Assembly: GCF_003336245.1 (NCBI RefSeq)
Contig: NZ_QPHM01000001.1
Location: 372,001-436,000, forward strand
Origin: Haloplanus salinus
Lineage (GTDB): Archaea > Halobacteriota > Halobacteria > Halobacteriales > Haloferacaceae
DNA: 64,000 bases
Reading direction: 5' to 3'
This document shows, piece by piece, positions 41,377-57,821 of this stretch. The notes under the pieces were generated by a model. It saw only the letters and a list, made by a program, of their open reading frames with translations. It did no database searches and was not told where the DNA came from. Both the position numbers and the translations under genes were made by a program. Each line of letters begins with the position of its first letter. Positions within the stretch are counted from its first letter, which is position 1.

Positions 41377-41966
41377 ACCGTCGCTTCTCGCGTGGGGAGC
41401 CTAAAAGTGGGGCGTCGGCGAGCAGTAGTCTTGAGATAAGCCAGTGAGACTGGGACCACCTCGAAAGCCCCGACTCGCTGGGGTCGGGGGTCTCGCTGTC
41501 GTCCGAAAATCTTCGATTTTTGGGATGACGAGAGAGCAAAGCTCTCTCGAATCACGGTCCTCGGCCTCCGGCCTTCGGTCCTTGCGTCGGCCGCCTTCCT
41601 CCAGCAGCGAGGGAGCGAAGCTCCCTCGAGCAATCGGGCGGCTGCGCCGCCCGATGACGAGTCGCCCCTTTCAGTCCCACCCGGTTGCGGCCGGTTGGCC
41701 AGCCGACGCGGGTGGGACTGAAAGGGGCCGGCGTCTCGGCGTCTCCGCTAGCGAAGCGAGTGGATGGCAGGAAAGGCGAGCGGAGCGAGTCTTTCCGCGA
41801 ACCCGGACGTTCAGGAGAGCGAAGCTCTCGTGAGCCAACCAGAACCCAGAGGGTTCTGGGGACGCCGGGGGCTTTCGAGGTGTCTTCAACAACAGTGCAC
41901 TAATCTAAACAGTACCGGCGAGCGATCCAAACCCTCAACATACATGCCGACCACACGCGCTATCGA
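41377..41966. other. 590-bp gene-free region containing the palindrome island
   Basis: No gene is supported. The left part, up to about 41456, has the PH-gene promoter and a small CCAGT/ACTGG repeat. The centre is the hairpin island (separate entry). The right part, about 41883-41966, has an A/T-rich tract (gcactaatctaaac) that may serve the exonuclease gene. Short ORFs here are Arg/Ser-rich and not haloarchaeal in composition. Confidence 0.6.
41457..41882. repeat. 426-bp island of nested inverted repeats with 15-bp terminal inverted repeats
   Basis: Terminal arms CACCTCGAAAGCCCC (41457-41471) and its exact complement (41868-41882). Inside, left to right: gccccgac/ggggtcgg; GAAAATC-TTC-GATTTT (41505-41520); AGAGAGC-AAA-GCTCTCT (about 41532-41548); GAGGGAGC-GAA-GCTCCCTC (about 41610-41628); ATCGGGCGGC-TGC-GCCGCCCGAT (about 41633-41655); a 20-bp pair at 41664-41683/41709-41728 (CCCCTTTCAGTCCCACCC core); GGAAAG/CTTTCC (41770-41796); GAGAGC-GAA-GCTCTC; AGAACCC-AGA-GGGTTCT. 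No ORF is credible in it. It resembles a non-autonomous (MITE-like) element or a long structured RNA. Confidence 0.7.
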
Positions 41967-56606: not shown

Positions 56607-57821
56607 CTACGGTCTCCACAGCCAGAGTCGGTCGAGGGGGTCGGTCCAGTCGACGCGTTCCTCCCACGCCACCTCGGAGGGGGCAGCGACGAGGACGAAG
56701 GGGCCAGCCTGGATCAGGTAGGCGTAGGTCACGTCGCCGTCGGCCCGATAGTAGACGCGCCGCCACCGGTCGCGGCCGAAGGAGTACGATCCCTCCTGGC
56801 TCACTGCCGTCCCGAGGAGCGTCTCCACCGCGTCGGCCGCGGCGTCGACGCCGTCGTAGTGCTGGACGAACAACGACGTGTAGGGGTAATCGAGGGGTGC
56901 GAGGGTCGAGGGCTGGTCGTCCTCGTCGGGGACCGCGTAACTCACGAGGTAAGCGAAGCCCGTCCGACCCGCCGTCTCGCTCGGGGCCTCGAACCGTAGC
57001 CGCTGGCGAGCGAGGAGTTCCCGCCCGGCGTTTTCGTCGTCGCCTGGGGCGTCGTCGAACGGGTCGCGCTCGATGTATCGCGGACCGGCGTAGGCGTAGC
57101 CCGAGTAGCCCGTGGAGTGGTGGACCTCGAAGAGTCCCGGGGCGGCCTCGTCGTCGTCGTCATCGTCGTCGTCCACCGTCCCGTCGTGGAGGCTCCGGTA
57201 GAGCGTGGCGTCGATCTGTCGATCCGAGAGGACCTGTCTGACGAACAGGTCGCTCCGGATGCCGCCGAGATAGTCGTGGAGGCGTTCGAGTTCCTCGTCG
57301 ACGCGGTCGAGGTCGCCACGGTCGGCGAAGCGGCGGGTCGTCGCGACGTGGCGGTCGACCTCCTCACGCATCTGGCCGGGAATGCCGAAGTGCCCGCCGA
57401 GTTCGGCCTCCGCGGTGGCGACCGCCCGATCCGTCGCACGGCGGACCAAGCCGAGGCTGTTGGCGTCGAAGTCGGCGGCGTCGCGGACGCGCTCGACGGT
57501 CGCCATGGCGTTGCCCAGCGTTCGCTGGTACGTGTGGATCGCGTCGTCGTACGACGTGGCGAACCACTCGATTTCGCCGTAGACGCGGGCCACCTCGGAC
57601 GCCAACCGGCGGTTCGGAACCGTCGGCTCGGTCCGTCGTACCGGTTCCGTCTCGTCGACGGCGGCCGACGCGGGCGCGGCGTCGGCGAAGGCGGCGTCGG
57701 TCGGCGTCGGGGCCGGCGTTCCGGTTTCGGGGTAGGCGACGTTCGAGTCGTCGGCCCCGAGACAGCCGGTCAGACCGAGCGCCGCCGCGGTCCCCAGCAG
57801 CGCCCGACGGGTCAGCTCCAT
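56607..57821 (-). CDS. TAT-exported lipoprotein (404 aa), function unknown
   Basis: Starts MELTRRALLGTAAALGLTGC, a twin-arginine signal followed at once by a lipobox cysteine, so the product should be a lipid-anchored protein outside the membrane. After a Thr/Pro-rich tether comes a helical region (EIEWFATSYDDAIHTYQRTLGNAMATVERVRDAADF), an Asp run of eight near 217, and a C-terminal beta-rich half with repeated Tyr/Trp motifs (WRRVYYRADGDVTYAYLIQAG). No domain recognised. It is divergent from endonuclease III. Confidence 0.8.
   Translation of the reverse strand: MELTRRALLGTAAALGLTGCLGADDSNVAYPETGTPAPTPTDAAFADAAPASAAVDETEPVRRTEPTVPNRRLASEVARVYGEIEWFATSYDDAIHTYQRTLGNAMATVERVRDAADFDANSLGLVRRATDRAVATAEAELGGHFGIPGQMREEVDRHVATTRRFADRGDLDRVDEELERLHDYLGGIRSDLFVRQVLSDRQIDATLYRSLHDGTVDDDDDDDDEAAPGLFEVHHSTGYSGYAYAGPRYIERDPFDDAPGDDENAGRELLARQRLRFEAPSETAGRTGFAYLVSYAVPDEDDQPSTLAPLDYPYTSLFVQHYDGVDAAADAVETLLGTAVSQEGSYSFGRDRWRRVYYRADGDVTYAYLIQAGPFVLVAAPSEVAWEERVDWTDPLDRLWLWRP

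Follow-up and report, generated by a model that had tools for sequence, protein, structure and literature searches.

A nested hairpin island in Haloplanus salinus is very probably the interior of a 492-bp MITE enlarged by small double-hairpin modules

The nested hairpin island at positions 41457-41882 of the window, a 64,000-nucleotide stretch of the Haloplanus salinus genome, is very probably the interior of a MITE of 492 bp (41424-41915) whose scaffold carries, and has been enlarged by, separate small double-hairpin modules. An initial annotation, made from the sequence alone, had offered a non-autonomous transposon derivative as one of its readings, which is now borne out by dispersed copies, by ends of the IS6 type, by target duplications of 8 bp and by an empty site at the syntenic position. 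The hairpins, moreover, are separate inserted modules, a feature that it missed. An odd palindromic island can thereby be read as insertions stacked on one another, and a class of inserts comes to light that are very short, widespread among haloarchaea and marked by empty sites precise to the base.

The extent of the element was read from its copies. The annotation had taken two 15-bp arms to be the termini of the island. These arms, at 41457-41471 (+ strand, CACCTCGAAAGCCCC) and 41868-41882 (- strand, GGGGCTTTCGAGGTG), are exact complements as claimed (15 nt, 100%), but they are internal, and the element reaches 33 nt further on each side. When copies were read side by side, their likeness ran past the arms as far as termini that follow the pattern GG[TC]A[CG]TGTT.AGAT.AG. 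The outer terminal repeats occupy 41424-41456 (+ strand, AGTAGTCTTGAGATAAGCC..., with the IS6-type end GGTAGTGTT.AGATAAG) and 41883-41915 (- strand, ...CTAATCTAAACAGTAC, also an IS6-type end); they have diverged and are of the archaeal IS6 type. An 8-bp target-site duplication, CGGCGAGC, flanks the MITE at 41416-41423 and 41916-41923. Across 34 MITE copies from this genome and its congeners, 15 had a duplication matching at 8/8 positions at the expected offset, against a mean of 0.57 copies (maximum 4) when right flanks were exchanged among copies in 500 trials; a clear duplication is absent in about half of the copies.

Searches for copies elsewhere in the genome and in other haloarchaea, both of which had been suggested as checks alongside that for target duplications, were likewise positive. 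About seven related places were found on the main chromosome, some of them partial, together with short partial matches, and 22 of 40 genomes, H. salinus counted, contained matches among its relatives. Many haloarchaeal genera have the core motif CCCCTTTCAGTCCCRCCCG (at least 120 stretches, L051-L170), often singly beside an IS6-type end and often as an inverted pair; neither the core motif nor the element matched viral contigs or phage records. The gene pair around the element was found in congeners without it: at this empty site the nearest congener (L252) reads GGGGCGTCGTCCGCGGCGATCC, where the window reads GGGGCGTCGGCGAGC, the MITE and then CGGCGAGCGATCC, and the gene pair with a short spacer is also present in L253, L254 and L255. 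Copies, ends, target duplications and empty sites of the MITE are matters of direct observation. Two of the copies in the same genome (L042, L043) have identical cores and similar right flanks (CGCTCGCCG), hinting at a target preference or recent movement.

In its ends, its 8-bp duplication and its length the element agrees with the archaeal IS6 group. The ends GGTAGTGTTCAGATAAG / GGTACTGTTCAGATTAG are common to the MITE copies and to IS6-type transposase loci in the genus (L185, L193), and the element combines terminal repeats matching an IS6-type insertion sequence with an 8-bp target-site duplication and with dispersed copies of a length, 492 bp, that is too short for a transposase. We propose that the MITE inserted between two genes, making the 8-bp duplication, and that an archaeal IS6 (ISH14/15-like) transposase, recognising the outer terminal repeats, most likely moved it in trans; the palindromic scaffold would then have been enlarged by separate 51-66-bp double-hairpin modules. 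A protein search found four archaeal IS6 proteins in the genome. The one IS6-type copy with a matching end (contig C3, L049/L202) has three stops, and the intact IS6-type copies have different ends. Since the matching copy is decayed and the intact copies end differently, the MITE may now be immobile, and its present-day mobilisation in this genome appears doubtful.

Within the element lies the core hairpin (41664-41728), a 20-bp stem, GCCCCTTTCAGTCCCACCCG / CGGGTGGGACTGAAAGGGGC (41664-41683/41709-41728), that is 100% complementary over its 20 nt. This is the largest pair of the island, as had been stated, but its loop is of 25 nt, not 3 nt. In one congener (L219) a further palindromic insert, whose ends are GATAGTGTTTATTGTAA, interrupts the core hairpin. 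Scaffold copies free of modules exist, their core measuring about 252 bp, and most of the small hairpins are therefore additions. The window has four double-hairpin modules (alpha, delta, eta and beta), discrete and roughly 50-66 bp long, each at a fixed site relative to the module-free scaffold; module boundaries other than those of alpha derive from paralogue comparison. Module alpha, here a slightly decayed copy at 41499-41554 (+ strand), lies between G41498 and C41555, and its empty site reads CTCGCTG^CGCTCC in L211 and CTCGCTG^CGC in L221. These copies belong to one locus in three species (L040, L211, L221), with the element inverted relative to its flanks in the second, and alpha is present there in L040 only, inserted between G and C with a length of exactly 66 bp. 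At the same locus beta is found in L040 and not in L211, and eta in L211 and not in L040. Delta (41606-41658, + strand) lies in CCAGC^GAGTCGCC, a site that is module-free in L213, L214, L223 and L227. Eta (41742-41799, + strand) is double-hairpin-like with imperfect stems, in CTCGGCG^AACCCGG; it is also present in L041 and is absent from L213 and L227. Beta (41810-41864, + strand) follows CCCGGACG, and the unoccupied site, CCCGGACG^ACGCAAG or similar, is seen in L044, L213 and L215. The window copy is without the right scaffold adjoining beta (about 50 nt, ACGCAAG...GAGACG), and the borders of beta may form a 4-bp GACG repeat. Other MITE copies add the sites epsilon (GGGGG^CCTCGCTG) and zeta (GCGTC^GGCCGCC).

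The modules also occur outside the MITE. In the tnpA gene of IS200/IS605 elements, alpha is a 54-bp insert in Haloferax larsenii, Natrinema versiforme and a third genome; filled copies (L172, L204, L279) differ from empty ones (L291, L292), which read ATACTGTCG^CTCCA, by 54 bp at G^C. The reading frame of the H. larsenii tnpA (L172, 1846-2298) stays open through the 54-bp insert; that frame contains a TGA in the Natrinema copy. Alpha is found again in the loop of an IS605 end hairpin, GCCTCGGGG^CTTGACCCCGAGG, filled in L280 and L284 and empty in L172 and L204-L206. Filled and empty alpha sites are thus available in three unrelated contexts (MITE, IS605 end hairpin and tnpA), and in each the insertion is exactly at G^C, with no target duplication. 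In Haloferax mediterranei, H. larsenii and Natrononativus, double hairpins of the beta type lie in an IS6 transposase gene region, of which H. alexandrinus has empty relatives. In all, 74 distinct perfect double hairpins were counted in 1.3 Mb of fetched DNA, picked partly for similarity to the island, against 0.33 in Markov sequences of equal size.

It could be argued that the spread of the modules is wholly passive, with IS605, IS6 and MITE copies as their carriers and homologous recombination as the means of exchange. Many alpha copies do sit inside other mobile elements, the tnpA insertion site is common to three genomes, as expected if it is carried by the insertion sequence, and the difference between L040 and L211 at the same locus could stem from recombination with another MITE copy. 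However, the three contexts with a precise G^C insertion are unrelated in sequence, so that at least three independent insertion events would still be needed, and we regard purely passive spread as unlikely. Hitch-hiking inside other elements nevertheless very likely contributes to the spread of the modules, which would be mobile in their own right rather than merely carried along.

The distribution of alpha was examined with a pattern that specified only its anchors and set no pairing inside the stem tips. It was present in 185 of 293 Halobacteriales genomes, for which a reversed control pattern gave 0 among the matches listed. A sample of the phylum comprised 43 Halobacteriales, 32 of them with alpha, and 204 genomes from outside that order, all without it. 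The flanking G and C were built into this pattern; when fetched loci were scanned without a flank requirement, 41 of 44 alpha copies had G..C. A right flank other than C accounted for 40 matches versus 264 with G..C in 117 genomes, some of the 40 being read-through of a C-flanked copy.

The stem tips of alpha covary. Among the matches listed, 125 distinct alpha modules were collected, and 1689 of their 1730 tip pairs (97.6%) were Watson-Crick, with 219 of 250 hairpins perfect and 66 distinct 5' arms; arms swapped among hairpins of equal length, again from the matches listed, were 81.6% Watson-Crick, and 84.0% at most. In the same set of listed matches C precedes the loop in 231 of 250 hairpins, and the commonest loops are TTC, GGA, GAA and TCC; the tips vary, and no loop sequence is conserved. 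For beta, an anchor-only search in the fetched loci gave mostly chance matches and was set aside, so that the covariation figures concern alpha alone.

These data also bear on the proposal that the modules are immobile and that each palindrome forms on the spot within the MITE, through template switching during replication. Tips that differ among copies, and 3-nt loops in both orientations (GAA/TTC, GGA/TCC), would be expected of such a process. It would account for upkeep of the tips but not for the origin of the anchors, which are identical at unrelated sites in 185 genomes, and the inserts are cleanly absent at the empty sites in all three contexts. Given these empty sites, in-place template switching is largely refuted for alpha, and as a general account we hold it to be highly improbable.

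The initial annotation had also raised a folded RNA, and the island does fold far better than shuffled sequences. The plus strand of the island has a predicted RNA folding energy of -271.6 kcal/mol versus -196.5 +/- 6.2 for shuffled sequences (z -12.2), the minus strand gives z -12.3, and folding of the whole 492-bp element as single-stranded DNA gives z -10.5, so the claim of organised structure beyond composition held on either strand (z about -12). The count of at least eight hairpins with 3-base loops held in part: six are perfect, with a stem of at least 6 bp and a 3-nt loop, and eight are reached only if imperfect hairpins and those with shorter stems, GGCC(TCC)GGCC for example, are counted too. 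We found no coding function, the ORFs across the island being mechanical only, in agreement with the earlier judgement that nothing coding is credible. A structured non-coding RNA gene with its fold under selection would be in keeping with the very low folding energy and with the strong covariation of the module stems. Against this, both strands fold equally well, the number and positions of hairpins vary between copies of one element, the stem tips are variable without a conserved loop sequence, and the target duplications and empty sites are marks of a transposon. All Rfam families fell below threshold in the island at both gathering and relaxed settings, and the sub-threshold matches were of hairpin type and look generic. 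An RNA gene is accordingly a very remote prospect, and a folded-RNA role for the island is neither shown nor needed. The sole Rfam match at the gathering threshold within the window is a tRNA. ARAGORN reported a doubtful tRNA at 57675-57760 of the window, with an unreadable two-base anticodon, which Rfam does not confirm. The further suggestion of a chromosome-organising or insulator site, to which only the intergenic position lends itself, is close to untenable with copies that are dispersed, variable and target-duplicated and an element that congeners lack between the same two genes.

How the modules of the MITE move can be proposed from where they lie. Precise insertion at G^C without target duplication, together with frequent residence in palindromes, suggests a hairpin-dependent single-strand route, in which the modules would move as hairpin-shaped single strands by way of a putative enzyme. 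The stems may stay paired because pairing is needed for movement, or because template switching from arm to arm restores it. Comparison of alpha copy number with Y1 and IS6 transposase counts yielded no partner enzyme: the correlation with Y1 transposases was weak (rho 0.24) and there was none with IS6 hits, which were counted with PF13610 and are low because that model misses many archaeal IS6 proteins. At the thresholds used, fifteen alpha-bearing genomes lacked Y1 and IS6 hits alike, and 28 of 73 had no Y1 hit at E 1e-10. We tentatively put forward, as a possibility that falls somewhat short of an even chance, that haloarchaea carry independently moving double-hairpin modules of ~50-66 bp that insert at G^C without target duplication, preferentially in the palindromes of mobile elements, with anchors fixed and tips free to vary if self-complementary, as a prokaryotic counterpart of mitochondrial double-hairpin elements and with a mobilising enzyme for which shape counts more than sequence. 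The modules offer a clear example, from nature and in mobile DNA, of base pairing that persists as the sequence changes, and the movement of double-hairpin or SMR-type repeats becomes testable in genetically tractable archaea.

Several known systems resemble the element or its modules. Archaeal IS6-family MITEs of 227 and 336 bp are on record (PMC7986276, PMC6807381), as is MITEHarch3 in ISfinder; they are alike in being non-coding, with IS6-type terminal repeats, an 8-bp duplication and a haloarchaeal host, whereas the window scaffold has the conserved CCCCTTTCAGTCCC core hairpin and the double-hairpin modules (MITEHarch3 was compared by description only). The PATEs of Haloquadratum are palindromic and non-autonomous, some only 52 bp long, and have no terminal inverted repeats or target duplications (PMC3119063); the window element is likewise haloarchaeal, palindromic and non-autonomous, but identity with PATEs was dropped on account of its terminal inverted repeats and target duplications. 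REP/REPIN and CGTC/GTAG-tagged repeats are short mobile palindromes (PMC3733652, PMC3116915), from which the modules differ in their hypervariable tips and pan-haloarchaeal anchors; for alpha, no obligatory Y1 (RAYT-type) partner was seen at the thresholds used. The open literature, with subscription papers mostly outside its coverage, held no description of such modules in haloarchaea beyond the Haloquadratum study. That study describes SMR-A, of about 110 bp, with terminal inverted repeats, no target duplication and near-terminal IS605-type palindromes (PMC3119063). By description, alpha likewise lacks a target duplication and lies in IS605-type end palindromes, but it inserts in other contexts as well and does not match SMR-A in length, being 54 and 66 bp at measured empty sites, about half of ~110 bp. 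The mitochondrial double-hairpin elements of the fungus Allomyces, as summarised in the part of PMC2800124 that cites Paquin 2000, are short, consist of two hairpins, lie in genes and spacers and are thought to be mobile, with no flanking duplication. By that summary the modules share the anatomy of two adjacent hairpins and insertion without target duplication, their own mobility being suggested by the empty sites, and differ in being archaeal, with fixed anchors and insertion at G^C.
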